NCBI RefSeq assembly: GCF_032401055.1
Contig: NZ_CP135529.1
Coordinates: 1,798,001-1,862,000 of the forward strand
DNA length: 64,000 nt
Source of the DNA: Tardiphaga sp. 709
GTDB lineage: Bacteria > Pseudomonadota > Alphaproteobacteria > Rhizobiales > Xanthobacteraceae
Direction: 5' to 3'
In this document: positions 6,292 to 40,291 of the stretch, piece after piece
Layout of the letters: each line of letters starts with the position of its first letter
How positions within the stretch are numbered: position 1 is the stretch's first letter
Translations under genes and position numbers: made by a program
The notes under the pieces: model-generated
Seen by the model: the letters and a program-made list of their open reading frames with translations, nothing else
Told to the model about the DNA's origin: nothing
The model's database searches: none

Positions 6292-6313
6292 CGGCCGCGT
6301 GTAACGGAAACGA

Positions 6314-17224: not shown

Positions 17225-17278
17225 CGAAAAGTCCTCAGACGATCAAGGCACTCTCTAATACAAAAACGCATATCAAAA

Positions 17279-18778: not shown

Positions 18779-18848
18779 GAGCGCGCCGCTACGGCCCGAT
18801 CAGGGGCCGTCCGAGAACTCAAATTGCAAACTGAGCAGTCATGCGCGG

Positions 18849-22858: not shown

Positions 22859-23572
22859 CTAGTGAATGCCGACACCGACCAGCCGATCGACCAGGGCGCG
22901 GTCGGCAGTCAGCACATCCGGCGTGCCGCTCCAGCTGGTACGGCCCCGCTCCATCACCATGACGCTGCTCGCGAAATCCAGCGCGCGTTCGATCTGCTGC
23001 TCGACCAGAATGATGGTGACTTCACTAGTGGCGGCCAGCTTCGCCAGCAGTGCCATCAACTCGTCGCAGATCACGGGCGCCAGACCTTCCAGAGGCTCAT
23101 CGAGCAACAGGATCGAGGGTTTGCCCAGCAGTGTCCGGGCCATCGACAGCATCTGCTGCTCGCCGCCTGACAGCTGCTTGCCGTAATTGCCGCGGCGTTC
23201 GCGTAGCCGCGGGAACATCGCATAGGCTTCATCGAGCGCCGACGCCGGCCGGCCCTTCAGCCCGGTGCGCAGATTCTCCTCCACCGTCAGCGAGGCGAAG
23301 ATGTCGCGGGTCTGCGGCACATAGCCGATACCGAGATCGGCGCGCGCCGAGGTGCGCTTGGCCGTGACGTCCTGGTCGCCAATCCTGATCTCACCGCCAT
23401 GGCGCGTCGTCAGGCCCATCAACGTCGCCAGCAGTGTGGTCTTGCCCATACCGTTACGGCCGAGCACGGCCAAGCGATCGCCTGCCTTCACCGAGAACGA
23501 AATGCCCTCGATGATCCGCGTCGCGCCATAGCCCGCGCTCAGATTCTGGATATCAAGTGGCGCGGCGGGCAT
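22859..23572 (-). CDS. Branched-chain-type ABC transporter ATP-binding protein (LivF family), second system
   Basis: 237 residues from the second ATG (23572), which has GGGGAG eight bases upstream; the ATG at 23578 leaves only two bases of spacing. Walker A GRNGMGKTTLLATLMG, signature LSGGEQQMLSMARTLL, Walker B ILLLDEPLEGLAP and LVEQQIERAL are intact. Last gene of the nine-gene catabolic/transport operon. It overlaps the end of the LivG gene by about 20 bases. Confidence 0.92.
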   Translation of the reverse strand: MPAAPLDIQNLSAGYGATRIIEGISFSVKAGDRLAVLGRNGMGKTTLLATLMGLTTRHGGEIRIGDQDVTAKRTSARADLGIGYVPQTRDIFASLTVEENLRTGLKGRPASALDEAYAMFPRLRERRGNYGKQLSGGEQQMLSMARTLLGKPSILLLDEPLEGLAPVICDELMALLAKLAATSEVTIILVEQQIERALDFASSVMVMERGRTSWSGTPDVLTADRALVDRLVGVGIH

Positions 23573-24317
23573 CGGCATAGCTCCCCAAATATGCGCGGCG
23601 CACTTCGTGATCGGCGGTGACCTGATCAGGCGATCCCTCGAAGATCAACCGCCCGGCAGCCAGCACCAGCACGCGCTTGGCAAACTTGAACACCAGATCC
23701 ATGTCGTGCTCGATCATCAGCACGGCGATATCATCAGGCAGACGATTGATCGCCTCGAGGATTTTGGGTGCTTCATCATGCGGTACACCGGCGGCAGGCT
23801 CGTCGAGCAGGAGCACCTTGGGATGCAGCGCAAGGCCGATGGCGAGCTCGATCAGGCGCTGCTGGCCGTAAGCGAGCTCGACCACCTTGCGATAGGCCAG
23901 CCTGTCGAGACCTAGATGGCTAAGAATCTCGCTCCACTCGGCGCGTACCTCCGGCAGCTCCGTCGAGGATGAGAAAAACCGCCGCGAGATGCGCTTGCGC
24001 TGCATGATCGCCAGGGCGACATTGTCGGCGACGGTGAGATTGGCGAACAGCCGCGTGGTCTGGAAGGTGCGCACCAGGCCGCGACGCACGCGATCGGGAA
24101 TGCTGAGGCCGGTGATCTCGTCACCGCCCATGAAGAACTGCCCTTCGCTCGGCGCGATGTCGCCGGTGATCAGATTGACCAGCGTGGTCTTGCCGGCGCC
24201 GTTCGGGCCGATCAGCGCGACGCGGTCGCCGGCAGTCAATTTGAAATTGACGTCGCGCGTCACATGTAGACCGCCGAACGAGCACGACACGCCGCGGGCT
24301 TCGAGGAGATCGCTCAT
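23553..24317 (-). CDS. Branched-chain-type ABC transporter ATP-binding protein (LivG family), second system
   Basis: 254 residues from the ATG overlapping the LivM stop by ATGA. Walker A GPNGAGKTTLVNLITG, LivG-typical RRGLVRTFQTTRLFANLTVADN, and Walker B VLLLDEPAAGVPHDEA with MIEHDMDLVF are present. The signature motif is modified (LAYGQQRLIELAIGLA), as usual in LivG. It pairs with the downstream LivF. Confidence 0.92.
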   Translation of the reverse strand: MSDLLEARGVSCSFGGLHVTRDVNFKLTAGDRVALIGPNGAGKTTLVNLITGDIAPSEGQFFMGGDEITGLSIPDRVRRGLVRTFQTTRLFANLTVADNVALAIMQRKRISRRFFSSSTELPEVRAEWSEILSHLGLDRLAYRKVVELAYGQQRLIELAIGLALHPKVLLLDEPAAGVPHDEAPKILEAINRLPDDIAVLMIEHDMDLVFKFAKRVLVLAAGRLIFEGSPDQVTADHEVRRAYLGSYADARRAT

Positions 24318-25315
24318 GCCGCCTCTCCCTTGCGCTTGAAGCGGGAGGCCAGCGACAGCACCGGTTCGATCAGCCCGCGCGGCGCGAACACCACGATCAG
24401 GATCAGCAGCAGGCCGACCAGCGTCATCCAGTGGAACGGATTGGCCGCGGCCACGATATGCTCGAAGATCATGAAGATGATCGTCCCCGCCAGCGCGCCC
24501 CATAGATGCCCTGCACCGCCAAGCACCAGCATCACCAGAACTTCGGCTGATCGTTCGAAGCTGACGCTGTCGAGACCGACGACGCCGGTGCTGATCGCCG
24601 TCAACGCTCCACCGATCCCGGCAACGGCACCAGCGACGCCATACATCGCGACAAGGCGCGGATAGATCGAGACGCCGATCATCCTGGCGCGCAGATCGTC
24701 GTCCTTGATGCCACGGCACATCAGACCAAACGGCGAGCGCACGAAACGCTGCAGCAGCACGAAGACAATGACCAGCACGCCCAGCGAGAACAAAAATGCC
24801 GTGCGGCTGTACATGTCGAAATTGAAGATGCCGAACACCTTGCCCGGTGTGATGCCTGACAGGCCGTCACTGCCGCCGGTCAGCCACGACAGCTTGTTGG
24901 CAAGTGCGGCGACCAATTGCCCCACCGCAATCGACAGCACCAGTTGTGGGAGCCCGCGAAACCGCGTGATCAGCGCACCGGAGATCAGCCCCATGACCGT
25001 TCCCGCGAATACACCGATCGCCAGCAACGCGATGGGATCGGTGATGCCACGCACGCAAGCAATGCCGGCGGCATAGGCACCGACGCCGAATTGCGCAGCA
25101 TGGCCGAGGGTGGCGACGCCGCAATAACCGGTGACCAGATCGAGCGACAGCACCAGGAATGCGATGCCGATCAGCCGCGTCAGGAACGCCAGATCGTCCG
25201 GATACAGAAAGTAGCCGATGGCACCAAGCGCGATGATACTCAGCGCACCTGCCGCCTCCTGACCGAAGGGAATGCTGCGCTTGTGCGGAACGTGGGTCGC
25301 GACGATCTCGCTCAT
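24314..25315 (-). CDS. Branched-chain-type ABC transporter permease (LivM family), second system
   Basis: 333 residues, about nine hydrophobic segments. GYCGVATLGHAAQFGVGAYAAGI is the LivM signature loop; RSPFGLMCRGIKDDDLRARMIGVS is the conserved cytoplasmic loop contacting the ATPases; the C-terminus has VVFAPRGLIEPV. Coupled by ATGA to both LivH upstream and LivG downstream. Confidence 0.92.
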   Translation of the reverse strand: MSEIVATHVPHKRSIPFGQEAAGALSIIALGAIGYFLYPDDLAFLTRLIGIAFLVLSLDLVTGYCGVATLGHAAQFGVGAYAAGIACVRGITDPIALLAIGVFAGTVMGLISGALITRFRGLPQLVLSIAVGQLVAALANKLSWLTGGSDGLSGITPGKVFGIFNFDMYSRTAFLFSLGVLVIVFVLLQRFVRSPFGLMCRGIKDDDLRARMIGVSIYPRLVAMYGVAGAVAGIGGALTAISTGVVGLDSVSFERSAEVLVMLVLGGAGHLWGALAGTIIFMIFEHIVAAANPFHWMTLVGLLLILIVVFAPRGLIEPVLSLASRFKRKGEAA

Positions 25316-26181
25316 GCGTGCGACCTGCCAAATAGGCCATGCGGAAACAGGAACACGACGACGATCACCGACAGATAGAAGAAGAAGTCGCCGAACTCCG
25401 GCGCGAGATATTTGCCGGTGGTGTCGGCGAGGCCGAGCAGGAGTGACGCCGACAGAGCACCAAGGATCGAGCCTGCGCCGCCGACAGAGACGACGACGAG
25501 GAACGTCACCATATAGCGCAGTGCATAGAACGGTTCGATCGGCAGGATCTCCGCGCCGACAACGCCACCGAATGCGCCGAGCCCGATCGCCAGCGCGAAG
25601 GTCACTGCATAGATGATTTCGGTGCGGATGCCCAAGGCGTCCGCCATACCACTATGATCGACCGAGGCGCGTAGCTTGATGCCGAACTCCGTCTTCTCGA
25701 TCAGCAGCCACAGCGCCAGCGCCGTAACCACGCCGCAGGCGATGACAAAGATGCGATGAGTCGGCAGCATGCGGAAACCGATATCGAGTGGACCACTGAG
25801 GGTCTGTGGCAGCGGAATCGATTTCAGCGACGGGCCGAAAATGAAATTGACGATGCCGATGATGAAGAACGTGATGCCGATGGTCATCAGCACCTGAATA
25901 AGCGGATCGGACTTCCGGTAGATTCGACGATACAGCAGAATCTCGAACGGGATCGAAACGATGATGGTACCGATCACTGCCATCAGGATCGCGACGCTAT
26001 AATGCACATGCAGGTCGCGGATCGCATAGGAGGCCAGATAGCCGCCAATCATGGCGAAAGCGCCATGTGCGAGGTTCACCACGCGCATCAGCCCCATCAT
26101 GATGGACAGGCCGATGGAAATGATGAACAGCACCATCCCATAGGCGACGGCGTCGGTCATGATGCTGAAGATGGTACGCAT
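25312..26181 (-). CDS. Branched-chain-type ABC transporter permease (LivH family), second system
   Basis: 289 residues from the ATG at 26181 (MRTIFSIMTDAVAYGMVLF), with AGGA six to seven bases upstream; the frame extends 12 codons further into the preceding gene, which is unlikely to be used. LivH marks are LMRVVNLAHGAFAMIGGYLAS and EKTEFGIKLRASVDHSGMADALG. It begins nine bases after the upstream amidohydrolase, tying transport to catabolism. Confidence 0.9.
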   Translation of the reverse strand: MRTIFSIMTDAVAYGMVLFIISIGLSIMMGLMRVVNLAHGAFAMIGGYLASYAIRDLHVHYSVAILMAVIGTIIVSIPFEILLYRRIYRKSDPLIQVLMTIGITFFIIGIVNFIFGPSLKSIPLPQTLSGPLDIGFRMLPTHRIFVIACGVVTALALWLLIEKTEFGIKLRASVDHSGMADALGIRTEIIYAVTFALAIGLGAFGGVVGAEILPIEPFYALRYMVTFLVVVSVGGAGSILGALSASLLLGLADTTGKYLAPEFGDFFFYLSVIVVVFLFPHGLFGRSHA

Positions 26182-26189
26182 GATTGATC

Positions 26190-27824
26190 CTATACCGAAG
26201 CAGCGACCGAACGCCATTCCGGCGACAGCGGCAAGGCGTCATGGACGACGGCGCCACGCACCATGGTGAGCAGCACCTTCGTCTCTTTCAGAGGGAGGCA
26301 CTCGGCGGCGAAGGGATCGCGATCGAGGGCGATCAGATCGGCCGCCATGCCCGGCATCAGCGTGCCGCGCCAGTCGTCCTGCTTCATCGCAATGGCGCCA
26401 CCGACCGTGTAGCTGTGAATGGCTTCGCGGACGCTGACAGCTTCACCCTGCCCGATCGGCGCACCGCTGTCCGAGGCGCGGTTCACGGCATCGGCGATGC
26501 CATCCCACGGAGACCACGACCCGGTCGGCGCATCAGAGCTGGCGATGTAAGTGACACCCGCGTCGATTACCGAGCGGCCGGGATAGCAACGATCCGCGCG
26601 CGGACCGAAAGCACCGGCAATCGAGCGCCGCATCCGGGTGAGAAAACTCGGCTGGGTGACGACGAGTGCGCCCAATGCCTTCATCCGTGCCAGTCCACCG
26701 GCGGGCGGCACGAAGTAATGTTCGATGCGATGCCGGACATCGGCGCGGGGATGTGCCGCCTGCGCCTTCTCATAGGCTTCGATGATGCAGTCGATACCGC
26801 GATCGCCGGTACAATGAACGGCAACCTGCCAACCGTCCGCATGGGCCTCCACGATCACGCACTGCAGTTCGGCTTCATCGCGCATGAACATGCCGCGGGA
26901 TGGCGTATCGAAGAAATCCTCGCTCACCGCCGAAGTCCGCGCTCCGACGATGCCATCGGCGAAATATTTCAGCGTCATGGACTGCCAGTCGGCGTCTCGC
27001 GTCGGCACCAACCCACGCGCCGCCGCTTCAGCCGGGTCGAGCTGGTTCATGAAGCCGAGCCGCATTGGCAGCACATCGCCATTCGCGCGGATCTCGTTCC
27101 AGATGGCGAATTCATCATCGAAGCCGACGGTGAACCCGACCGCGGCTTCTACGGCAGCAACAAGACCGAACCTAGCGCTATCGGCAATGGTCGCGCGCAG
27201 AGCCGTGGTGAGCTCATTGCGATCCATCGGCGGCGCAGCACGGAAAATCAGTTCGGCTGCGCTTTCTTTGGCGCTGCCGTCCAGTCGGCCATCCTCGGAG
27301 CGCCCGAACGTGCCGCCTTCCGGATCGGCGGTGGCATCATCGATGCCCAGCAGTCGCAGCGCGGCACTGTTGACGACGGCGACATGACCGCAGAAGCGGC
27401 GGATCAGCACCGGATGATCGGGAATGACGCCGTCGATTTCCGCCCGTGTCGGCAGCCGATGCTCCACCACTCCGTTCTCATCGAGGCCCGCACCGTAAAC
27501 CCATTTATCACATGGAATGGCGCGCGCACGCGCAACCAGCAAATCAAGCACATCGGATATCGTGGGCGCATCGCGCGGCGTCACCGGCACCTGGAGTCGC
27601 GCATGGGCGATGGCGAACAGATGAATATGCGCGTCGGTGAGGCCGGGAATGACGGCGGCGCCCGCGAGATCGATCGTCTCGTCGGCGGATGGCGCAACAT
27701 CCGCTGCACCAATCCAGACCACCTTGCCATCGCTGACGACGATGCTGTCCGCGGGGAATTCATCCCAGGCAGAACGATAGATGCGGGCATTGATCAGTCG
27801 AAGCGAGCGCGCGCGGCTGGTCAT
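26190..27824 (-). CDS. Cytoplasmic YtcJ-like amidohydrolase (amidohydrolase family 3)
   Basis: 544 residues, no signal peptide. The metal site begins IPGLTDAHIHLFAIAHA (HxH), with later VAVHCTGDRGIDCI and RHRIEHYFVPPAGG, and the metal Asp in YIASSDAPTGSWSPWDG. The C-terminal beta domain ends MAADLIALDRDPFAAE. Family members hydrolyse amides and N-substituted formamides; real substrates are rarely known. It lies between the binding-protein gene and livH. It is paralogous to the exported YtcJ-like enzyme that starts the same operon, suggesting hydrolysis of related compounds inside and outside the cytoplasm. Confidence 0.83.
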   Translation of the reverse strand: MTSRARSLRLINARIYRSAWDEFPADSIVVSDGKVVWIGAADVAPSADETIDLAGAAVIPGLTDAHIHLFAIAHARLQVPVTPRDAPTISDVLDLLVARARAIPCDKWVYGAGLDENGVVEHRLPTRAEIDGVIPDHPVLIRRFCGHVAVVNSAALRLLGIDDATADPEGGTFGRSEDGRLDGSAKESAAELIFRAAPPMDRNELTTALRATIADSARFGLVAAVEAAVGFTVGFDDEFAIWNEIRANGDVLPMRLGFMNQLDPAEAAARGLVPTRDADWQSMTLKYFADGIVGARTSAVSEDFFDTPSRGMFMRDEAELQCVIVEAHADGWQVAVHCTGDRGIDCIIEAYEKAQAAHPRADVRHRIEHYFVPPAGGLARMKALGALVVTQPSFLTRMRRSIAGAFGPRADRCYPGRSVIDAGVTYIASSDAPTGSWSPWDGIADAVNRASDSGAPIGQGEAVSVREAIHSYTVGGAIAMKQDDWRGTLMPGMAADLIALDRDPFAAECLPLKETKVLLTMVRGAVVHDALPLSPEWRSVAASV

Positions 27825-27903
27825 GTCGAAGGAAATCTCATGTCGCGCGACGATGTCGCAGAAAGAGGGGGATTCCGCAACGAGGCGGAATCCCCGGCAT
27901 TGC

Positions 27904-29079
27904 CTACTTCGTGCTCAGCGCCCAGTCCGGCTGATCGGCGAAGGTCTGGCTCTCCTTGTTGATCAGCTTGCCGTCCACCTTCTCCACACTGCGTAGATAG
28001 ACGTTCTGGCGAATGTGACGCGTGGTGGGATCGATCGACACCGGACCGCGCGGGCTGACCCACTTCATGTCCTTGACGGCGTCGACCGCCTTGGCGGCAT
28101 CGCGCTTGCCATCGGTGGCCTCGATCATCTTATAGATCAGGCGCGCGCCGTCATAGGCCGCGACCGACGTCATGGTGACTTCGTCGAGGTTGCCGCCGCC
28201 CTTCTTGATGGTGGCAAGGAAGGCCGCGTTTTCCTTGGAGTCGTGCGACACCGAATAGTGATAGGTCGAGAGGATACCGATGCCGGCATCGCCGATATTC
28301 GGCAGATCCGGCTCGGTGACGACGTCACCGGTCGACATCAGCTTGACACCGCCGGCCTTCAACCCGTTGTCGATATAGGCCTTGACGAAGCCCAGCGTCG
28401 GCGGGCCGGATGGCAGGAAGGTGAAGATGGTGTCCGCGCCGGAATCCTTGATGCGCTGCATGATCGGGCTGAAGTCGGTGGTGGCGAGCGGAATGCGAAC
28501 CGCTTCGACCACCGCGCCGCCCTCACCTTCGAACGTCTTCTTGAATGCCGCTTCAGCATCGACACCCGGACCGTAATCGCTGACCGCGATGGCCACCTTC
28601 TTGGCGCCGTTCTTCAACGCAATTTTCGCGGCAGGCACAGTGTTCTGCCACATGGTGAAGGAGGTGCGGACGATATAGGGGCTCTTCTCGACGATCGACG
28701 AGGTCGCCGCATTCATCACGATCAGCGGAGTCTTGGATTCTTCCAGCAGCGGCGCGATGGCCATCGCGTTCGGCGTGAAATAGACGCCAGCGAGATATTG
28801 CACCTTGTCCTTGACCAGCAATTCCTGCGCCAGTGCCTTCGACTTGGCGGGATTCGGACTCTCTTCATCGCGATAGATGAATTCGACGTCATGCTTGCCT
28901 GCTTTGGTGCCATGCTCGGCGACCCAGGCGTCGATGCCCATCTTGAAGTTCTTGCCAAACAGCGCGTAAGGGCCCGACATGGTGCCGATCACGCCGACCT
29001 TGATGGTGTCGGCGGAGGCCGTGCCGGTCATCAGGCCGAGAACGGCCAGTGCAAGAATCGATTGGCTGCGTCTGTTCAT
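27904..29079 (-). CDS. Branched-chain-type ABC transporter substrate-binding protein (LivJ-like), second system
   Basis: 391 residues from the ATG at 29079 (MNRRSQSILALAVLGLMTG), which gives a proper signal peptide cleaved near TASADT and has GGGGA about eight bases upstream; the frame extends 18 codons further without signal-like character. Mature type I fold: IKVGVIGTMSGPYALFGKNF, DEESPNPAKSKALAQELLV, GVYFTPNAMAIAPLLEESKT. Relatives in amine and aromatic-acid loci share the MNAATSSIVEKSPYIVRTSF region. It probably binds the pathway's substrate in the periplasm. Confidence 0.9.
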   Translation of the reverse strand: MNRRSQSILALAVLGLMTGTASADTIKVGVIGTMSGPYALFGKNFKMGIDAWVAEHGTKAGKHDVEFIYRDEESPNPAKSKALAQELLVKDKVQYLAGVYFTPNAMAIAPLLEESKTPLIVMNAATSSIVEKSPYIVRTSFTMWQNTVPAAKIALKNGAKKVAIAVSDYGPGVDAEAAFKKTFEGEGGAVVEAVRIPLATTDFSPIMQRIKDSGADTIFTFLPSGPPTLGFVKAYIDNGLKAGGVKLMSTGDVVTEPDLPNIGDAGIGILSTYHYSVSHDSKENAAFLATIKKGGGNLDEVTMTSVAAYDGARLIYKMIEATDGKRDAAKAVDAVKDMKWVSPRGPVSIDPTTRHIRQNVYLRSVEKVDGKLINKESQTFADQPDWALSTK

Positions 29080-29168
29080 TGTGATTGTCCCCGTTGGAAA
29101 GTTAAGAAAGCTATTCGGCAAACCTGTATTCAATAAACGTGCCGAGATCGGCGCGCCGAAATGACGCG

Positions 29169-30605
29169 TCAGAACATCTCGAAATATTCGCGCTGCTCCC
29201 AGTCGGAGACTTCCGCCTGGAAGCGATCGATCTCGGCATTCTTGATGTGGGTATAATAGTCGACCATCGTCGCCCCCATCTTCTCGCGGAAGAACGGATC
29301 TTCCTTGAGCGCAAAGGTCGCCTCGCGCAGCGACTTCGGCAGCAGATCGGCATTGGTCTCGTAAGGCGTATCGGCTGATGGCCCCGGATCAAGCTTGCGA
29401 TCGACGCCGTCGAGACCCGACAGGATCTGCGACGACATATAGAGATAGGGATTGGCGGCGGGCTCGCCGACACGGTTTTCGATACGCGTCGCGGAATCGC
29501 CGACACCGCCGAGCACACGGAGCATTGCGCCGCGATTATCGCGGCCCCAGATCGCACGATCCGGCGCCAGCGAATAGGAGCGATAGCGCTTGTAGCCGTT
29601 GATGGTCGGCGTCGTGAATACGGTTGCCGCGCGCGCATGCGTAAGAAGCCCCGCGAGATAGCCCTGCCCGAACGATGACAGCGGCTGCGTGCCCTCGGTC
29701 GGCATGAACGCGTTTGCGCCGGTTGCACGCGATACGATCGACTGATGCAAATGCCAGCCAGACGACACGACGTTCGGAATCTTCGGCCGGCACATGAAGG
29801 TGGCGTGATAGCCGTGGCGATGGGCGATCTGCTTCACCGCGCTACGGAACAGCACCATGCTGTCGGCCGGCGTCAGGCCCACCGTCGGCGCGAAAGTGAA
29901 TTCGCACTGGCTCGGGCCGTATTCGACTTCCACCGAACGTAGCGGAAGGCCAAGCGCGATCACGTCGCGCCGGATGATTTCGAGCACCGGCTCCATCTGG
30001 TCGTAGCGCTGCTCGGTGAGATAGTTGTAGCCGTGCGAGAGCAGACTGACCTCCGGCGGATTGCCGGGCTGGCCGGCATCCTCCGGCTTCATGCGGTTAT
30101 TCTCGACGTTGAAGATATGAAACTCGACTTCAAGACCGGCGACGAAATCGTAGCCACGTGCGCCGAGATCGCCGAGCACCTTCTTGTAGAGGTTGCGCGT
30201 CGCGAACGGCACCGGGCGGCCATCGGCGAAATGCACGTCGCACAGAACCCACCCGGTCTCAGGCGCCCAAGGCAGAATACGAAACGTGCTGGGATCGGGA
30301 ATCATCAGCACGTCGGCCGCGCCCTGCATTTCCGGAATGCCGAAGCCGCCGCCCGCAGTGAACACCGGAAACACCGTCTTGTGCGACGTGTCCTTGGCGA
30401 ACATGGTCGTGGTGATCGAGCAGCCGCTTTCGAGACAGCGCAATGCCTCGCTGGCGATCAGCGTCTTGCCGCGCAGGATACCGTGCTGATCCGGAAACGA
30501 CAGCCGGATCACTTCGAGCTTATGCTCTTCGACCATGCTGCGCAGCCGGACGGCTGCTTCTTTCTGCTCCGCGGACCACAAACCGTGACGTTCAACGAAA
30601 CTCAA
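29169..30605 (-). CDS. Glutamine-synthetase-like ligase (candidate gamma-glutamyl-amide synthetase)
   Basis: 478 residues if it starts at the TTG at 30605. GGGAG lies just upstream, the Rieske gene ends at 30637, and the next Met would cut off the conserved FVERHGLWSAEQK region. GS motifs are LSFPDQHGILRGKTLI, the metal-binding AGLEVEFHIF, VEVEYGPSQCEFTF, SSGWHLHQSI and RIENRVGEPAANPYLYMSSQ. The NRxGxPxANPYxY and HLHQS details fit the GlnA-like ligases that glutamylate amines (as in aniline and isopropylamine catabolism) rather than housekeeping GlnA. The position directly after a Rieske oxygenase gene supports an activating role. The true amine is unknown. Confidence 0.82.
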   Translation of the reverse strand: MSFVERHGLWSAEQKEAAVRLRSMVEEHKLEVIRLSFPDQHGILRGKTLIASEALRCLESGCSITTTMFAKDTSHKTVFPVFTAGGGFGIPEMQGAADVLMIPDPSTFRILPWAPETGWVLCDVHFADGRPVPFATRNLYKKVLGDLGARGYDFVAGLEVEFHIFNVENNRMKPEDAGQPGNPPEVSLLSHGYNYLTEQRYDQMEPVLEIIRRDVIALGLPLRSVEVEYGPSQCEFTFAPTVGLTPADSMVLFRSAVKQIAHRHGYHATFMCRPKIPNVVSSGWHLHQSIVSRATGANAFMPTEGTQPLSSFGQGYLAGLLTHARAATVFTTPTINGYKRYRSYSLAPDRAIWGRDNRGAMLRVLGGVGDSATRIENRVGEPAANPYLYMSSQILSGLDGVDRKLDPGPSADTPYETNADLLPKSLREATFALKEDPFFREKMGATMVDYYTHIKNAEIDRFQAEVSDWEQREYFEMF

Positions 30606-30636
30606 CGCACTCTCCCGCCGCTGTTCTGATCGATCT

Positions 30637-32004
30637 TCACTCTGCCGCCGGCAGGTGGATGACATTGGACCCCGGCTCGGTCTGGTCAGCCGGAGCCGCC
30701 GCCATCCATGGCGCACCGCGACGACGGGCGACGTCGACTTCCATCCAATAGGTTTCCCAGCCCTTGGTCGGCCCGATGCCGTCCATGGTGCCCGGGCCCT
30801 GAATGCTGCGCGCGGTGTCCGCATCGAGCGACATCATCGGCTTCTGGCCGCCGGCAACCTTCTCGATCTCCGCACGCAGCAGCTTGCGATAGGCGATGAT
30901 CGCCTTGTCGCTGGAGCCGAGATGCTCGCGGGTTCGGTCCTGGATCTTGCCCATCGACTCCACCGCCCACTGATCATGAACATTGATGTCAGCGCCCATG
31001 CCGGTATATGTCTCGTGCTTCTGCTCGTGCGGATTGAAGCCGTAGTCGTTGGTCTTGTTCTTGCGCGAGGTGTAGTTCGGCAGCTCGTAAAGTTCGAGCC
31101 GCTGGTCGGTCATCTTCTTCTTGTCGACCGGTGTCGTATAACTGGTGAAGATCGCATACCAGTAGCAGTTCTCGTCATCGACCGGCACGTGCCACTGGGT
31201 GATCGTCATCTCGGTGCTCATGGGGATGACGAAGCCATGCGGGAATAGCTGGTTGGTGACGCGCACATGGGTGCGCTCGTCGTCGAGCTCGCGCAGCGCG
31301 ATCAAACGCAGACCGTATTCGGTCGATTCGACGTTGATGATCGGACGATCATACTCGCGTAGGATCTTGGTCATCGGCAGTTCGGTGCCGGCGGATGCGC
31401 CGCGGAACTGCTTGCCGTAGGACGCTTTGACGTCCTCGTCCTCAAAGAAGCGATGCAGGAACGACGCATGGGCGGGATCGATGCCGACTTCCAGCGCCTG
31501 CAGCCAGTTGCATTCGAACAGGCCCTTGAAGGCGAAGGTGTATTGGCCGGGTGCGGCGAAGCAGTCGATTTCCGGGAATGCCGGCGGCTCGCCCTCGCCC
31601 AGATAAGCCCAGAGAATGCCGCCCTTCTCGACCACGGGATAAGCGCGCTGCTTGATGCCGGCGCAGAGCTTCGAAGTCTTCGGTTCGGCCGGCGTCTCCA
31701 GGCACTTGCCCTCGACGTCGAACAGCCAGCCATGAAACGCACAGCGCACGCCGCCGCCTTCGAGCCGGCCGAAAGCCAGATCGGCGCCGCGATGCGGACA
31801 ATCACGATCCAGCAGGCCGTAGCGGCCCTGCTCGTCGCGGAAGAGGACAAAATCTTCGCCGAGCAATTTGACCGGACGGATCGGACGATCCCCTTCGAGC
31901 TCATCGACCAGCGCCGCCGGCTGCCAGTACTGGCGCATCAGCTTGCCCGCGGGCGCTTTGGGCCCGATGCGGGTGATCAGGTCGTTCTGCTCTTGGCTCA
32001 TCAT
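30637..32004 (-). CDS. Rieske non-heme iron oxygenase, large (alpha) subunit, phthalate-dioxygenase-like
   Basis: 455 residues. The Rieske [2Fe-2S] ligands are Cys69 and His71 (DCPHRGADL) and Cys88 and His91 (CAFHGWLFD). Mononuclear iron ligands His179 and His184 sit in GIDPAHASFLHRFFED; the third carboxylate is probably in the HDQWAVES segment near residue 355. The N-terminal PAGKLMRQYWQPAAL is typical of the single-component-type alpha subunits in the phthalate 4,5-dioxygenase / vanillate demethylase group. No beta subunit is present. The divergent ferredoxin reductase gene could supply electrons, but no separate ferredoxin gene was seen. It hydroxylates or dealkylates an organic substrate with O2. 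Confidence 0.9.
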   Translation of the reverse strand: MMSQEQNDLITRIGPKAPAGKLMRQYWQPAALVDELEGDRPIRPVKLLGEDFVLFRDEQGRYGLLDRDCPHRGADLAFGRLEGGGVRCAFHGWLFDVEGKCLETPAEPKTSKLCAGIKQRAYPVVEKGGILWAYLGEGEPPAFPEIDCFAAPGQYTFAFKGLFECNWLQALEVGIDPAHASFLHRFFEDEDVKASYGKQFRGASAGTELPMTKILREYDRPIINVESTEYGLRLIALRELDDERTHVRVTNQLFPHGFVIPMSTEMTITQWHVPVDDENCYWYAIFTSYTTPVDKKKMTDQRLELYELPNYTSRKNKTNDYGFNPHEQKHETYTGMGADINVHDQWAVESMGKIQDRTREHLGSSDKAIIAYRKLLRAEIEKVAGGQKPMMSLDADTARSIQGPGTMDGIGPTKGWETYWMEVDVARRRGAPWMAAAPADQTEPGSNVIHLPAAE

Positions 32005-32040
32005 GGCAAGATTTCCTTTTTAACTCTGGCGATGCGCCTT

Positions 32041-33741
32041 TTAACGCTGAAATACGATCTTGCCGCCGACCATCGTCATATCGGCAGTGATGTCCTTGAT
32101 CTGGTCGTCCGGCACCGTCATGAAGTCGGCGGAGAGCACCACGAGATCGGCCAGCTTGCCGGCCTCCAGCGTCCCCTTCCGCGTTTCCTCAAACATGTAG
32201 CGCGATGCCGCGCTGGTATAGAGACGAAGCGCCTGCTCGCGCCCGATCGCTTCGGACGCGCCGTAGACCTGGCCGGCAGGGTCCTTCCGCGTCACCATGA
32301 TATACATCGTGAGGAACGGGTTCAGCGGATTGACCGGGAAATCGGTGCCGGCGCCGAGATTGTCCAGTCCCATTTTCTCGATCAGGGTGCGCGTCGGGAC
32401 CGCACGATCCGCTGTCGGCCTGCCTAGGAAACGCGCGACCGTCGCCGCCTTGTCCCACATGAAGGCGTTCTGGAAATCGATCCGCGCCCCGACGCGGCGC
32501 GCCCGCTCCATCTGTTCAGGGCGGATCAGGCTGGCATGGATCAAAACGAAGCGGCGATCCTTGATCGACTTTTCCTTGTCGGCGGCTTCGAACGCATCCA
32601 GCACCTGATCGACGCCGAGGTCGCCGACGACATGAACGCCGACCCGCCAGCCGCGATTATTGGCGATCGACACCAGCTGCTTCAGCCGCTCGGGCGTGAC
32701 CTGCGCGATCCCATGATAATCGTCATGCGAGTCCGGATAGGCCTCGCGCATCATGGCCGTCTTCAGGGTCATGCCGCCGTCATAGAAAATCTTGATGCCG
32801 CCGAGCTTCAGCCAATCGTCGCCGAAGCCCGACGTGGCGCCGTTGCCGCTCATGATGGCGTCCCAACCGGCGGAGTCCGCGGGCGGCTCCGGTCGAAACA
32901 TCGTTCCGACCCGCACTGTCGCATCGCCTGCCAGAGCGAGCTTTTGCAGGATCTGCGTGTCGCGCGCGCTTGTCGCCCCCTCGACGACGCTGGTGATACC
33001 GAGGCGGTTGAGCGCGGCCTCGGCGAGACGATATTGCCGCAACTCCTCGTCTTCGGTGTAGGGCGGCACGATGTTCTCGACCAGCGGGATCGCCGTCTCG
33101 ACCAGCACGCCATTGATGTCGCCGCTTGCGTCGCGCTCGAAAGAGCCGCCGGCTGGATCGGGCGTGCTCTTGCCGATGCCCGCCTTCTGCAACGCCAGCG
33201 AATTGGCCATCGCAAAGTGACCGACGGTCCGCAGATAGACCGGATTGTTCGGGGAAACGGTGTCGAGCTCCTGGCGGGTCAGGTAGCGCTTTTCCGCGAG
33301 CTGCGACGGCGGATGCCAGCCGCCGGTCGTAATCCATGCGCCGGGCTGTTTCTTCGCAACGAACGCTTTGATGAGCTCAAGCGCGCCGGCCACATCTTTG
33401 GCGCCGCCGAGATTGACCACATAGTCACCGAGCCCGGCCGCTTTGAAATGGGCGTGGGTGTCGATTAGGCCGGGGACCACCGACTTGCCGGCGAGGTCGA
33501 TGACCCGGGTCTGCGGACCCGCGAGCGGCTTGATGGCAGCGTCGCTGCCGACCGCGAGGATCTTGCCGTCGCGGATGGCAAGCGCTTGCGCGATCGTCGA
33601 TTGGCCGTCGAGGGTGAGGATCTTGCCGCCCGTCAGGACGACCTGAGGGGCGTCCTGGTCAGATTGCTGCGCCACAGCCGGCAAGACCGGGGCACCAACG
33701 ACGATTGCCCCCGCAATGATGAATTTCGCAACCAGGTGCAT
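32041..33741 (-). CDS. Exported YtcJ-like amidohydrolase (amidohydrolase family 3)
   Basis: 566 residues with a signal peptide (AKFIIAGAIVVGAPVLPAVAQQ), so likely periplasmic. Metal-site motifs are VVPGLIDTHAHFKAAGLG, VGVHVVGDLGVDQVLDAF, RFVLIHASLI and LGAGTDFPVNPLNPF; the C-terminal strand LADLVVLSADFM closes the metal-dependent hydrolase fold. First gene of the nine-gene minus-strand operon, facing the divergent promoter with the paired 15-mer repeats. Periplasmic hydrolysis of an amide before import by the co-transcribed Liv system is a plausible role; the substrate is unknown. Confidence 0.83.
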   Translation of the reverse strand: MHLVAKFIIAGAIVVGAPVLPAVAQQSDQDAPQVVLTGGKILTLDGQSTIAQALAIRDGKILAVGSDAAIKPLAGPQTRVIDLAGKSVVPGLIDTHAHFKAAGLGDYVVNLGGAKDVAGALELIKAFVAKKQPGAWITTGGWHPPSQLAEKRYLTRQELDTVSPNNPVYLRTVGHFAMANSLALQKAGIGKSTPDPAGGSFERDASGDINGVLVETAIPLVENIVPPYTEDEELRQYRLAEAALNRLGITSVVEGATSARDTQILQKLALAGDATVRVGTMFRPEPPADSAGWDAIMSGNGATSGFGDDWLKLGGIKIFYDGGMTLKTAMMREAYPDSHDDYHGIAQVTPERLKQLVSIANNRGWRVGVHVVGDLGVDQVLDAFEAADKEKSIKDRRFVLIHASLIRPEQMERARRVGARIDFQNAFMWDKAATVARFLGRPTADRAVPTRTLIEKMGLDNLGAGTDFPVNPLNPFLTMYIMVTRKDPAGQVYGASEAIGREQALRLYTSAASRYMFEETRKGTLEAGKLADLVVLSADFMTVPDDQIKDITADMTMVGGKIVFQR

Positions 33742-33759
33742 CCCGCCGCCCCGCCAAAA

Positions 33760-33776
33760 TGTTCAATAGACGAACG
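33760..33776. promoter_or_regulatory. Operator-like 15-mer, copy 1 (PcaR-like)
   Basis: TGTTCAATAGACGAACG, containing the partial palindrome GTTC...GAAC, just upstream of the exported amidohydrolase ATG. It matches copy 2 at 33900 in 15 of 17 positions and resembles the PcaR site remembered from pseudomonads (GTTCGATAATCGCAC). Binding by the adjacent IclR protein is inferred. Confidence 0.55.
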
Positions 33777-33899
33777 AACGTGCGAATATTAGCGTTGGAC
33801 TAATTCTAAGCAAGCGAAATTTTGCAGCTTGAATTGATGCGTTAGTGAGCAAATGCAGCAATTCGCGCCCAAAGCATCACCTTGCGCAGAGCGAACACT

Positions 33900-33916
33900 T
33901 GTTCAATATACGGACG
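33900..33916. promoter_or_regulatory. Operator-like 15-mer, copy 2 (PcaR-like)
   Basis: TGTTCAATATACGGACG, in the same orientation as copy 1 and 140 bases away, about 70 bases before the ferredoxin reductase start. One copy lies near each of the two divergent genes, as expected if one regulator controls both operons. Confidence 0.55.
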
Positions 33917-33983
33917 CAATTCAGGAGCTGATGATGTCGAAGACTTTGAATTCGCGTACGGATCGGACCCAGGGAGCACACTC

Positions 33984-35204
33984 GTGAGCGGCCTCGTAAT
34001 CATCGGCGCCTCTTACGCGGGCGTCCAGGCCGGCATCAGCGCGCGCGAGAAGGGCTATCAGGCGCCGATCCGCATCGTCGCCGATGAAATCCATCTGCCG
34101 TATCAGCGCCCACCATTGTCGAAGGCGTTCCTGTCCGGCGATGTGGCGCACAACAGCCTTTTCCTCCGCGGCGAGGACTATTTCAAGACCCAGGGCATCG
34201 AGCTTGTGCTGGGCCATCGCGCCATCGGACTCGATCGCGCGGCCGGCCGGATCGCACTGGACGGCGGCGACAGCCTGCCTTTCGATCAGCTTGTCATCGC
34301 CACCGGCTCGCGCGCGCGGCGCCTCAGCGTGCCCGGCCATGAGCGCGACGGCATCGTCTATCTGCGCACCCTCGATGACGCGCTGCATCTCAAGCCGCGG
34401 CTCGAAGCAGCCAACGACGTCGCCATCGTCGGAGGCGGCTTCATCGGCCTCGAAGTGGCATCGACTGCAGCCAAGGCCGGCAAGAAGGTAACGCTGATCG
34501 AGGCGCAGTCGCGCCTGCTGGAGCGCGCGGTATCGCCGCTGATCTCGCAATTCCTTCTGGATAGCCATCGTTCCCATGGTCTCGACATCCGCTTCAACGA
34601 ATCCGTCGTCGCCATCGAAGGTAGCAGCGCCGTGCATGAGGTCGTCTGCTCCAGCGGCGTGCGCGTGCGCGTCGACCTGATCGTCGCCGGCATTGGCGGC
34701 ATCGCCAATGACGAGTTGGCCGCGCAGGCCGATATCACCTGCACCAATGGCATCGATGTCGATGAACATGGCCTGACCAGCGCGCCGAACATCTATGCCG
34801 CCGGCGACGTCAGCAATCACCACAACGGCTTCGCCGGCCGCCGCGTCAGGCTGGAAGCCGTGCAGAACGCCACCGATCAGGGCAAGGCTGTGGGCGCGAT
34901 GATCGCCGGCAAGCCGGAAGCCTATGACGCGGTGCCGCGTTTCTGGTCGGATCAATATGACGCCAAGCTGCAGATCGTCGGCCTCTCCGCGCCGACCGAC
35001 AGCGCGGTGATCCGCGGGTCGATGGATGATGGCAAGTTCTCGGTGTTTTACTATCGCGACGGCAAGCTCACCGCCGTCGACAGTATCAACCGGCCCGGCG
35101 ACCAGATGATCGCGCGTCGCCTGATCACTGCAGCGCTGTCGCCGACGCCCGAACAGGCCGCCGATCTGTCATTCGATCTGAAAAAATTCGAAGCAGGCAA
35201 ATAG
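33984..35204 (+). CDS. FAD/NAD-dependent ferredoxin reductase (rhodocoxin/putidaredoxin reductase type)
   Basis: 406 residues from the GTG at 33984, with AGGGAG seven bases upstream; the FAD-binding glycine motif then starts at residue 4 (VIIGASYAGVQAG). Further marks are PYQRPPLSKAFL, the NAD-binding VAIVGGGFIGLEVA near residue 147, IYAAGDVSN and RRVRLEAVQNATDQGKAVG. It transfers electrons from NADH to a ferredoxin or Rieske protein and is the likely redox partner of the divergently encoded Rieske oxygenase. It begins the operon reductase-IclR-CHMI. Confidence 0.9.
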   Translation: MSGLVIIGASYAGVQAGISAREKGYQAPIRIVADEIHLPYQRPPLSKAFLSGDVAHNSLFLRGEDYFKTQGIELVLGHRAIGLDRAAGRIALDGGDSLPFDQLVIATGSRARRLSVPGHERDGIVYLRTLDDALHLKPRLEAANDVAIVGGGFIGLEVASTAAKAGKKVTLIEAQSRLLERAVSPLISQFLLDSHRSHGLDIRFNESVVAIEGSSAVHEVVCSSGVRVRVDLIVAGIGGIANDELAAQADITCTNGIDVDEHGLTSAPNIYAAGDVSNHHNGFAGRRVRLEAVQNATDQGKAVGAMIAGKPEAYDAVPRFWSDQYDAKLQIVGLSAPTDSAVIRGSMDDGKFSVFYYRDGKLTAVDSINRPGDQMIARRLITAALSPTPEQAADLSFDLKKFEAGK

Positions 35205-35220
35205 GGCGGACCAGCGGCTC

Positions 35221-36006
35221 ATGCCCAAGATCAAGCGCCCCGACGACGAACGCGGCAATACCGACTTCATCGAGAGCCTCGATCGGGGCTTGAGGGTGTT
35301 CGAACTGTTCGGCGCGCATTCGCGCCCGATGACGCTGAGCGACGTCGCCAAGGCCGCCGATCTGCCACGTGCCACTGCGCGTCGCATCCTGTTTACGCTG
35401 GAACGCAAAGGCTATGTGACCAGCGACGGCAAGCTGTTCGCGCTCTCGCCCCGCGTGCTGGCGCTGGCTGGCTCCTATATGACGTCCAATCAGGTCGTGA
35501 CCATCCTGCAGCCGGTGCTCGACAGCATCTCCAGCGACGCACAGGAAATCTCGTCGCTCGCGGTGCTTGAGGGCCATGAGGTGATCTTCGTCGCCCGCGC
35601 CAGCCCGGCGCGCGTGTTCTCGGCCGGCATCGATCTCGGCTACCGGCTGCCCGCGTTCTGCTCGTCGGTGGGCCGCGCCATGTTGGGCAAGTATTCCAAC
35701 GACGACCTCACCGCAACGCTGAATGCCATGGACCTCGTGGCGATGACGCCGTTCACGGTCATCGACAAGGAGCTGCTGAAGGCCACCATCATCACCGACC
35801 GCGAGAAAGGCTACTCGCTGGTCGACCGCGAGGCCGAACCGGGCTTCCGCTCGATCTCCGTGCCGGTGCGGCGCTACGATGGCGCGATCGTCGCCGCCAT
35901 CAATATGGGCGCCCATGTCGACCGCGTCTCCACCGGCGAAATGATCGACCGCTTCCTGCCGCTGCTGCGCGACGCTGCCGACTCGGTAAAGCCGCTGCTA
36001 CTTTGA
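35221..36006 (+). CDS. IclR family transcriptional regulator, PcaR/PobR-like
   Basis: 261 residues. The N-terminal FIESLDRGLRVFELFGAHSR and LPRATARRILFTLERKGYV form the winged helix-turn-helix of the aromatic-catabolism branch (PcaR, PobR, PcaU). The effector domain shows VARASPARVFSAGIDLGYRLPAF, SSVGRAMLG and GFRSISVPVRRYDG. It starts 16 bases after the reductase stop. Its closest family members are activated by beta-ketoadipate-type acids, and PcaR-like 15-mers lie in the divergent promoter, so autoregulation and control of both operons is likely. Confidence 0.9.
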   Translation: MPKIKRPDDERGNTDFIESLDRGLRVFELFGAHSRPMTLSDVAKAADLPRATARRILFTLERKGYVTSDGKLFALSPRVLALAGSYMTSNQVVTILQPVLDSISSDAQEISSLAVLEGHEVIFVARASPARVFSAGIDLGYRLPAFCSSVGRAMLGKYSNDDLTATLNAMDLVAMTPFTVIDKELLKATIITDREKGYSLVDREAEPGFRSISVPVRRYDGAIVAAINMGAHVDRVSTGEMIDRFLPLLRDAADSVKPLLL

Positions 36007-36022
36007 TCCAACTGGACAGCCC

Positions 36023-36370
36023 ATGCCGCATATCGTCATCGAACACTCCACCGACGGCCATGGCGGCCTGTTCGACGCCACCAGCCTGATGCAGGCCCTG
36101 CATGATGCAGCAGCCGCCACCGGCATGATGCAGGCGTGGGACATCAAGGTCCGCGCGATGGCCTATGTGGACTATCTGCTTGCCAGGGAACGCGACGGCT
36201 TCTGTCACGTCACGGTGTCCATGCTGGAAGGCCGCACGCCCGAGCAGAAAGTGGCGGTGAGCGAAGCACTGCGTGCCGCGATGGCCAGGCTGCTGCCGCA
36301 GACCAAGAGCCTCAGCGTCGATATCCGGGACATGGACCCCGTCGCCTACAAGAAGCGGCTGAACGAGTAG
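36023..36370 (+). CDS. 5-carboxymethyl-2-hydroxymuconate isomerase-like tautomerase (CHMI/HpaF family)
   Basis: 115 residues, close to the family's usual 120-130. It begins MPHIVIEHS, leaving Pro as the catalytic N-terminal base after Met removal, and continues with YLLARERDGFCHVTVSMLEGRT and EALRAAMARLLP as in CHMI trimers. These enzymes ketonise hydroxymuconate-type ring-cleavage products. In this operon it suggests that the pathway passes through an enol ring-cleavage intermediate, although no ring-cleavage dioxygenase gene is in the window. Confidence 0.82.
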   Translation: MPHIVIEHSTDGHGGLFDATSLMQALHDAAAATGMMQAWDIKVRAMAYVDYLLARERDGFCHVTVSMLEGRTPEQKVAVSEALRAAMARLLPQTKSLSVDIRDMDPVAYKKRLNE

Positions 36371-37197: not shown

Positions 37198-37818
37198 TCA
37201 CCACATGGTCTGGCGCGCCCTCTCCGGCCATTGCCGGTCATATTCCGGACCGCCGACCCGGCGCTCGCTCATCTCTGCCAGGATCTCGCCGGGCGTCGGC
37301 AGGGTCCTCGGATCGACGCGTTTGTCAGGGTTCCAGAGATCGGACCGCACGATGGCGCGGGCGCACTGGAAATAAATCTCCCCGACCGTCATCACGATCA
37401 CCGTACGTGGCGCCTTCTCCTCCACGGCGAACGACGCCAGCAGATCCGGGTCCGTTGAGAGATGCGCCGTCCCGTTGATGCGGAGCGTGGTGCCGGCACC
37501 GGGGATCAGGAACAGTAGCGCGATGTTGGGATCGCGCACGATGTTGCGCAGGGAGTCCACGCGATTGTTGCCGCGGCGGTCCGGCATCATCAAAGTGCGC
37601 TCGTCATGGATCCGGACGAAGCCCGGTTTGTCGCCGCGCGGTGAGCAATCCAGCCCCTCCGGGCCGGTGGTCGCCAGAGCGGCGAAGGGCGAGACCTCGA
37701 TCAGCCGCCGGTACTGCGCCGTTACGCAGTCCGCCACCTTGGCGGTGGATGCTTCGCCGATGTTATCGAGACGGCCGTAGATCTCTTCGAGCTGCTCGAT
37801 GGTTTCGATCACCGACAT
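37198..37818 (-). CDS. Pyridoxamine 5'-phosphate oxidase (PPOX) family flavoprotein
   Basis: 206 residues. A split-barrel FMN-binding core is seen in SPFAALATTGPEGLDCSPRGD, RTLMMPDRRGNNRVDSLRNI, NIALLFLIPGAGTTLRINGTA and YFQCARAIVRSDLW. This is the subgroup of 200-residue PPOX proteins (MSMEG_1061-like) of unknown substrate, not true PdxH. Strong ribosome site (GGAGGGGAG). It starts 23 bases after the phnN stop and may be the last gene of the C-P lyase transcript, though no role in phosphonate use is known for the family. Confidence 0.8.
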   Translation of the reverse strand: MSVIETIEQLEEIYGRLDNIGEASTAKVADCVTAQYRRLIEVSPFAALATTGPEGLDCSPRGDKPGFVRIHDERTLMMPDRRGNNRVDSLRNIVRDPNIALLFLIPGAGTTLRINGTAHLSTDPDLLASFAVEEKAPRTVIVMTVGEIYFQCARAIVRSDLWNPDKRVDPRTLPTPGEILAEMSERRVGGPEYDRQWPERARQTMW

Positions 37819-37841
37819 GGCCGCACTCCCCTCCGCCGTAT

Positions 37842-38420
37842 CTATTGACCCCTGATAACCCGTATCAGGTCATCCGCATGATCTTCCGCGACACCAATAT
37901 TGTTGATCGTGACGTCGGCACCTGATGTCTCGACGCTGCGCTTGAGCCGATCGCCGATCGGCCCATCGGTTGAGCGTCCCCGTGCCGCAAGTCGCGCCGC
38001 AAGCACTTCCGGCGGCGCCGTGATCGACACGACGACGACATCTTCATAAGCGGCACGTAGCGTGGGGATAACCGTCCGTGAGATATTGGCAACGACATTG
38101 CGGCCGGCGCGAAGCGCATCATCGATCGAGCGCGGAAGCGCATAACAAAGACCATGCGCCTCCCAGTGAACGGCGAAGGCGCCGCTGGCCTGTGCCTGAC
38201 GGAACGCCTCCGGCGTAACCTGCGCATTATTCTCGAATTCCGACGCCTCGCGCGTCACCACGCGGCGCGTGAACACCACATTGTCGTCATCCGCACAGGC
38301 AGCCTGCGCCAGACCGATGAGCGTATCCTTGCCGGCACCCGAAGGGCCGACCACCAGCACCAATCGGCCGGGTCCGATCCGGCCTGCCTGCGCTTCGGAT
38401 ATGGCCGCGGTGTCGGTCAT
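37842..38420 (-). CDS. phnN: Ribose 1,5-bisphosphate phosphokinase PhnN
   Basis: 192 residues. Walker A VVGPSGAGKDTLIGLA and the guanylate-kinase-like FTRRVVTREASEFE and FAVHWEAHGLCYALP segments identify PhnN. It phosphorylates ribose 1,5-bisphosphate to PRPP, the last step of the C-P lyase pathway. Its ATG overlaps the phnM stop by ATGA. Confidence 0.92.
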   Translation of the reverse strand: MTDTAAISEAQAGRIGPGRLVLVVGPSGAGKDTLIGLAQAACADDDNVVFTRRVVTREASEFENNAQVTPEAFRQAQASGAFAVHWEAHGLCYALPRSIDDALRAGRNVVANISRTVIPTLRAAYEDVVVVSITAPPEVLAARLAARGRSTDGPIGDRLKRSVETSGADVTINNIGVAEDHADDLIRVIRGQ

Positions 38421-39571: not shown

Positions 39572-39582
39572 GGTTCTCTTTC

Positions 39583-40284: not shown

Positions 40285-40291
40285 GTTGACC

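Follow-up and report, generated by a model that had tools for sequence, protein, structure and literature searches.

A Tardiphaga locus related to known arylamine oxygenase systems

To our knowledge, the closest characterised counterpart of the locus described here is SadABD(C), the 4-aminobenzenesulfonate (sulfanilate) 3,4-dioxygenase of Hydrogenophaga intermedia PBC. The locus lies in a stretch of 64,000 nucleotides (nt), hereafter the window, at positions 1798001-1862000 of the 6.36-Mb genome of Tardiphaga sp. 709, and at its centre are adjacent genes for the alpha subunit of a Rieske oxygenase and for a glutamine synthetase-like (GS-like) protein. The roles of sadC and sadD were reportedly described in a 2012 paper on the sad genes. 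A Rieske-alpha and GS-like pair is part of the sad operon of 4-aminobenzenesulfonate degradation (Gan et al., PMC5632844), and the original prediction, made from the window sequence, was therefore too strong in calling the system possibly undescribed.

Judged from protein families and synteny, the window locus very probably encodes a gamma-glutamylation-dependent Rieske arylamine system, in which the GS-like enzyme would activate the amine before oxygenation and an importer is linked to the pair, much as had been predicted. Its substrate is probably 4-aminobenzoate (PABA) and its product protocatechuate. This assignment is based on a 4-hydroxybenzoate-type periplasmic binding protein, a GS-like loop carrying Lys75 and Lys or Arg80, a PcaR/PobR-type regulator, and the presence of PnbB genes near the pair in a few relatives.

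As in SadABD(C), an alpha-only Rieske gene is followed directly by the GS-like gene, at a distance of 31 nt in the window. A Hydrogenophaga locus with GntR, Rieske, GS-like and ferredoxin genes in the sadABD order has Lys75 and Arg80 in its GS-like protein. The window differs in carrying an IclR rather than a GntR regulator, in lacking the plant-type [2Fe-2S] ferredoxin gene of the sad operon, and in its additional Liv importer and two YtcJ-type amidohydrolase genes. Hydrogenophaga proteins are 46-52% (GS-like) and 56-60% (Rieske; one partial match, 63%) identical to those of the window, and one genome has an additional, closer pair (62% and 67%, respectively); the comparison used proteins of the genus rather than those of strain PBC, and the GS-like matches include aniline-type proteins (e.g. 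G546:C3). Of 40 Hydrogenophaga genomes searched at a threshold of 1e-100, 30 gave a match to the GS-like protein and 31 a match to the Rieske protein. This agrees broadly with Gan et al. (PMC5632844), who describe the sad operon as fairly conserved across all genomes of the genus published by then.

The AtdA1, NpaA1 and DcaQ systems (for aniline, 1-naphthylamine and chloroaniline, respectively) likewise use a GS-like gamma-glutamyl-arylamine synthetase to feed a Rieske oxygenase. The aniline-type systems seen in this analysis have alpha and beta oxygenase subunits, a glutamine-amidotransferase-like gene and Phe at position 75 (NpaA1 numbering), whereas the window, in line with the prediction, lacks the amidotransferase-like gene and the beta subunit and has Lys at that position.

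All twelve genes of the locus are uninterrupted and open where they had been placed. Nine are transcribed from the minus strand in the order AH1 (exported amidohydrolase), Rieske alpha, GS-like, binding protein, AH2 (cytoplasmic amidohydrolase), LivH, LivM, LivG and LivF, and they face a divergent plus-strand operon for a flavin adenine dinucleotide (FAD) ferredoxin reductase, an IclR regulator and a tautomerase resembling CHMI. The predicted coordinates were mostly right, with the starts of the GS-like, LivG (now 24317), binding protein (29079) and reductase (approximately 33984) genes moved. Domains of the window proteins were assigned with Pfam and NCBIfam profiles.

The GS-like protein and its amine-pocket loop

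The GS-like gene (29169-30605, minus strand; Gln-synt_C) most likely starts at the TTG codon at 30605, giving 478 amino acids (aa), rather than at the long-frame start at 30824; the TTG codon lies 31 nt past the Rieske stop codon and has GGGAG upstream. Among solved structures, its best match is 8wwu at 462 bits, with all others at or below 193 bits; 8wwu is NpaA1, a gamma-glutamyl-1-naphthylamine synthetase (PMC11335346). In a tree of 31 rows, the window protein belongs to a single group of 20 Lys75 rows (support 92/98, slightly short of the value that the tool marks with a star), which recurs in 89% of 200 bootstrap trees; aniline-type (NpaA1/DcaQ) and other GS-like rows stand next to this group. 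The Tardiphaga genome has three Gln-synt_C matches besides the window protein. Two of its glutamine synthetases, together with Escherichia coli GlnA and with PuuA, branch outside the GS-like rows (98/99), although PuuA, one of these two Tardiphaga proteins and L195 have long branches and the exact places of the first two are unsure. Placement among GlnA or PuuA proteins had been named as the outcome that would speak against the prediction; the tree and the structure bit scores rule out a housekeeping or PuuA-type glutamine synthetase. By these comparisons the protein is of the gamma-glutamyl-arylamine synthetase type, with the corresponding activity predicted.

Gamma-glutamyl-organic-amine synthetases (GoaS, such as AtdA1 and NpaA1) have an extra N-terminal loop, motif 15 (V68-M81), that is absent from GSI. 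It is fully aligned in the window protein and gapped in both GlnA rows. In NpaA1, the neighbouring subunit contributes this loop to the wall of the amine pocket, Phe75, Phe86 and Trp235 form the bottleneck, and the change Phe75Ala almost entirely abolishes aniline activity (PMC11335346). The alignment took a single GS-like protein from each of 156 loci, with 153 different sequences among them; 80 of the loci are the best 80 of 584 matches and mostly belong to one clade. Position 75 is Lys in 149 of these proteins and Phe or His in seven; of the Lys75 proteins, 148 have Lys or Arg at position 80 and one has Gln; and the catalytic pair Glu232 and Glu234 is retained in all 156. Counts over these loci are not independent, because many are close relatives and a few contigs are each represented by two loci (L035 and L142; L194 and L205). 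A window-type Rieske gene is found near the GS-like gene in none of the seven loci that lack Lys75, three of which have a two-subunit oxygenase (L118, L194, L205) and one annotated alpha and beta subunits (L210). Basic residues at positions 75 and 80 of the tunnel bottleneck would suit a ring with a negatively charged group.

Methylobacterium plasmids carry GS-like proteins (73-74% identity) closer to that of the window than the one on Novosphingobium plasmid pSA3 (69%), and the protein of Bradyrhizobium sp. NFR13 is 97% identical. A relative of about 50% identity on Delftia plasmid pLME1 stands beside an amidotransferase gene and both oxygenase subunits, in what is presumably the chloroaniline dca cluster.

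A single-subunit Rieske oxygenase and its electron supply

The Rieske gene (30637-32004, minus strand; Rieske and LigXa_C domains) has as its closest solved relatives 9ina (447 aa, named only Rieske protein) and, at 214-231 bits, 7fhr (named putative phthalate 4,5-dioxygenase) and 7fjl, all of which we take to be homo-oligomers without beta subunits. A beta subunit is normally missing from oxygenases of this type. Since the companion of the GS-like enzyme is a one-subunit Rieske protein, the missing beta gene is normal, and a split aniline dioxygenase that has lost its beta subunit is ruled out by the intact alpha-only type. Every one of the 20 rows aligned keeps C69, H71, C88, H91, H179, H184 and D344, which presumably bind the cluster and the iron. 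Arg248, likewise invariant, aligns with Arg244 of phthalate dioxygenase KF1, a residue with a carboxylate role, which counts in favour of 4-aminobenzoate as substrate.

The reductase gene (33984-35204, plus strand, start approximate; Pyr_redox_2 and Reductase_C) encodes a relative of AndAa/HcaD by profile match. Six-frame translation of the region between it and AH1 revealed no ferredoxin remnant by eye, and the 23 Fer2 matches of the genome all lie outside the locus. A reductase without a recognised ferredoxin occurs in 19 of the 156 loci, and other loci, such as L147, L150, L153 and L157, have a ferredoxin gene beside the reductase. The gene for the electron carrier would lie elsewhere in the genome, unless the reductase acts directly.

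The Rieske and GS-like pair is the conserved core

For a census of modules we used 69 Lys75 loci, namely the window, 59 genome loci and nine plasmid records, leaving aside L194 (Phe75 type) and the best-80 loci, which are mostly one clade. The tblastn searches, which miss weak homologues and genes outside the fetched stretch, found an RPA0985-type binding protein in 19 loci, a second type of binding protein in four, AH2 in 14, AH1 in eight, reductase in 25, ferredoxin in 18, tautomerase in 17, IclR in 31, GntR in seven, an amidotransferase-like gene in three, PnbB in four and nitroreductase in three. Over all 156 loci the binding protein, AH2 and AH1 number 31, 23 and 11, and every locus with AH2 also has the RPA0985-type binding protein. 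A window-type Rieske gene lies within 6 kb of the GS-like gene in 144 of the 149 Lys75 loci. The other five are L111, which is cut by the locus end, and L161, L162, L163 and L179; the genomes of L161, L162 and L163 (G008, G117 and G078) have the Rieske orthologue on a different contig. Among 149 genomes of the family, GS-like matches occur in 68 (1e-90), Rieske matches in 64 (1e-120), and binding protein and AH2 matches in 27 and 16, respectively (both at 1e-100).

The complete window gene set is present in five of the 69 loci (the window and L139-L142), all within the genus of the window, and in two of the best-80 loci, L041 and L035, the latter lying on the contig that also gave L142. A gene set not conserved elsewhere had been named as a second outcome against the prediction; it applies only in part, the pair being conserved and the full set restricted to these few loci. 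On these module counts the Rieske and GS-like pair is, as far as gene content can tell, the core of the system, the hydrolases are extras and the remaining genes are optional. A Nitratireductor plasmid (L202) encodes a Rieske protein 82% identical to that of the window (5624-6982) and a GS-like protein of only 52% identity (8968-10428), which suggests separate exchange of the two genes.

An importer of the 4-hydroxybenzoate-binding type

The periplasmic binding protein (27904-29079, minus strand, start placed at 29079; Peripla_BP_6) is 83% identical over 367 residues to Protein Data Bank (PDB) entry 4evs and 80% identical over 386 residues, signal peptide included, to 4f06. We take 4evs to be Rhodopseudomonas palustris RPA0985 and 4f06 to be a protein of R. 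palustris HaA2. In two sampled loci with the order IclR, Rieske, GS-like, binding protein, LivH, LivM, LivG and LivF, the binding protein either equals the 4f06 chain without a difference across residues 23-391 (L154) or is 97% identical to 4evs (L155). The 4f06 protein is thus encoded beside the same enzyme pair, and the gene order indicates that a solved binding protein for para-substituted benzoates belongs to this operon type. By sequence and synteny the window protein is an orthologue of both. The melting temperature of RPA0985 shifts by 29.5 °C with 4-hydroxybenzoate (PMC3223731). That ligand has no amine for a gamma-glutamyl ligase to act on; 4-aminobenzoate would be its amine analogue.

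The importer is completed, on the minus strand, by the permeases LivH (25312-26217, start possibly about 36 nt later) and LivM (24314-25315), both BPD_transp_2, and by the ATPases LivG (23553-24317, start placed at 24317) and LivF (22859-23578), which belong to Liv/Urt-type ATPase families; LivF has syntenic orthologues in relatives. R. palustris needs PABA, and the importer might simply scavenge PABA or 4-hydroxybenzoate for biosynthesis as a mere neighbour of an unrelated amine oxidation pair, a view that the restriction of the RPA0985-type protein to 19 of 69 loci would favour. We consider this very unlikely, given that in those 19 loci the binding protein gene is on the same strand as the pair and lies directly downstream of it, or a few kilobases further in L145. 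A second Liv-type binding protein gene (Peripla_BP_6) is located elsewhere in the window (11098-12324, minus strand).

Accessory amidohydrolases

AH1 (32041-33741, minus strand), with a signal peptide recognised by eye, and AH2 (26190-27824, minus strand) are optional YtcJ-type proteins (Amidohydro_3) that keep the HxH and later His/Asp motifs, as judged by eye; their only solved relative is uncharacterised. AH2 sits between the binding protein and LivH in all 14 sampled loci that have it. The original prediction envisaged that AH1 cleaves an N-acyl arylamine outside the cell, that the amine is imported, glutamylated and oxidised, and that AH2 hydrolyses the glutamyl amide. The signal peptide of AH1 and the position of AH2 would fit this route, which is nonetheless improbable: neither external cleavage nor hydrolysis by the second enzyme is supported as a core step with AH1 in only eight and AH2 in only 14 of 69 loci, AH2 is found in none of the 50 sampled loci lacking the RPA0985-type binding protein, and dioxygenation at the amine-bearing carbon would itself free the glutamyl amide, so that no hydrolase is needed. 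The idea that AH2 substitutes for the amidotransferase-like hydrolase was also considered. The two never share a locus, yet this says nothing, because the queries used found an amidotransferase-like gene in only three of 69 loci (L117, L200, L201) and most loci have neither. The YtcJ hydrolases are perhaps accessory, possibly freeing PABA from N-acyl or conjugated forms.

Regulator and protocatechuate context

The IclR regulator (35221-36006, plus strand) matches TIGR02431 (PcaR/PcaU/PobR) with 301.1 bits against a cut-off of 284.75, bearing out the predicted PcaR-like identity. Three of four relatives pass the same cut-off, and the fourth is a fragment of 109 aa with no match. It is followed by the CHMI/tautomerase-like gene (36023-36370, plus strand; CHMI, 45.5 bits), and the divergent intergenic region (33742-33983) contains an imperfect inverted repeat at 33831-33864. 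Elsewhere the genome has pcaH (366.9 bits, cut-off 296.4) with a second intradiol match adjoining.

PnbB (PF16155; 4-hydroxylaminobenzoate lyase by its Pfam family name) converts 4-hydroxylaminobenzoate to protocatechuate, and 4-aminobenzoate is the over-reduction product. Its gene lies 1.4-5 kb from the GS-like gene on Methylobacterium nodulans pMNOD01, where a nitroreductase gene adjoins it, on Caballeronia p2, on Cupriavidus C39 p1 and in genome G503, and 11.7 kb away on Cupriavidus HN-2 p2. Among the nine plasmid records with the pair, four have PnbB within 12 kb (three in the fetched stretch, one by record search); the remaining five were checked in the fetched stretch only. In Caballeronia and Cupriavidus the pair is accompanied by AAHS transporters that are similar to PcaK but score less than the PcaK equivalog cut-off, and in L198 a LigB-type ring-cleavage gene is close to the pair.

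A proposed pathway for 4-aminobenzoate

Drawing on gene content, synteny, protein families, the loop signature and the presence of pcaH, we infer a substrate, a product, an order of steps, a leaving group and roles for the hydrolases. The binding protein and LivHMGF would import PABA, whose ring amine the GS-like enzyme would link to the gamma-carboxyl group of glutamate at the expense of ATP. Electrons for the alpha-only Rieske oxygenase would come from the FAD reductase through a ferredoxin whose gene lies outside the locus. The oxygenase would dioxygenate carbons 3 and 4; the amine would then leave, in the chemically simplest case as glutamine, and protocatechuate would remain and pass into the pca pathway, which the genome encodes at another place. 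The regulator, of the PcaR/PobR family, would sense an aromatic acid. A literature search, made mostly without subscription journals, found no gene for a bacterial 4-aminobenzoate oxygenase among the papers it listed. No novelty is claimed for the 4-aminobenzoate pathway itself, since a metabolic reconstruction attributes a route via 3-oxoadipate to strains of the Ralstonia solanacearum complex, in passages that name no genes for it (PMC10470067).

Several observations weigh against PABA as the substrate. The binding data concern 4-hydroxybenzoate, the word stem aminobenzo being absent from the main text of PMC3223731, and a protein found in only 19 of 69 loci cannot speak for all of them. A search of the locus found no ferredoxin gene. 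PnbB is absent from the window genome by genome search; it is present in nine of 58 genomes searched and near the pair in only one of these nine, with the other eight having it far off on the same contig (three) or on a separate draft contig (five), and the four plasmids searched as whole records were picked after nitroreductase or PnbB had already been seen there. Hydrogenophaga PBC depends on PABA as a vitamin despite carrying sad (PMC5632844). Finally, Lys75 is shared by the Hydrogenophaga sad-type locus and by the Novosphingobium SA1 plasmid, so that it would mark an anionic ring substituent without separating carboxylate from sulfonate.

The last point bears on a rival in which the chemistry is the same and the substrate is a different anionic arylamine: sulfanilate or, for instance, 3-aminobenzoate or 4-aminosalicylate. 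Novosphingobium resinovorum SA1 is a sulfanilate degrader (PMC5632844), and its plasmid pSA3 carries the nearest plasmid pair to the window from a named degrader of this kind (Rieske 78% and GS-like 69% identical), which we take to be its sulfanilate dioxygenase. The Lys75 and Arg80 of the Hydrogenophaga locus in sadABD order, and a sulfanilate-degrading Bradyrhizobium in the reference list of PMC5632844, point the same way. The binding protein, however, is orthologous to a 4-hydroxybenzoate binder, the regulator is of the PcaR/PobR type, and the pair is common in Bradyrhizobium-like genomes, where exposure to sulfanilate would not be expected. We regard this rival as possible and rather unlikely, and PABA as the preferred substrate.

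As an extension of the PABA assignment, we tentatively raise the doubtful possibility that the locus serves the dedicated aerobic destruction of PABA, including PABA from folate breakdown, with PABA freed from a conjugate by one of the YtcJ hydrolases and the ring opened via protocatechuate. Glutamate would then be placed on the amine of PABA, at the opposite end from the glutamate of folate. Dihydropteroate synthase uses PABA; its gene, folP, lies 8-10 kb from the pair on the Novosphingobium SA1 plasmid (L116, 1343-2173).

Genomic neighbourhood

The locus is flanked by carbon-phosphorus (C-P) lyase phosphonate genes (38417-43096, minus strand) for PhnI, PhnJ and two ABC ATPases, with an amidohydrolase at the place expected of PhnM; the order of the genes at 37198-40284 is kept beside the locus in L139, L140, L142 and L143. 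On its other side, at 16202-22300 (minus strand), is a polysaccharide block that encodes a polysaccharide deacetylase, a MurJ-like flippase, a glycosyltransferase and a GNVR/CbiA tyrosine-kinase-like protein. A further set of genomes from the same family (L166, L168, L170, L171, L173, L178) has the pair near the expected origin of replication, flanked by a PfkB/metallo-beta-lactamase-fold block on one side and by gyrB, a RecF-like gene, dnaN and dnaA on the other; Pfam assignments for these genes come from L173 alone.

Implications

4-Aminobenzoate is the direct carboxylate analogue of 4-aminobenzenesulfonate, and the locus links the SadA-type enzyme class with binding and regulatory proteins of the 4-hydroxybenzoate/protocatechuate type. 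The original sad substrate has been considered likely to be a natural compound resembling 4-aminobenzenesulfonate (Gan et al., PMC5632844). The analysis yields one substrate prediction, two candidate residues for specificity (75 and 80 in the GS-like protein) and a solved binding-protein structure for a system present in many Bradyrhizobium-like and other soil bacteria. If the destruction of PABA is indeed its function, then PABA turnover would be a common trait of Bradyrhizobium-like soil bacteria, and the natural substrate of SadA-type enzymes would have been named.

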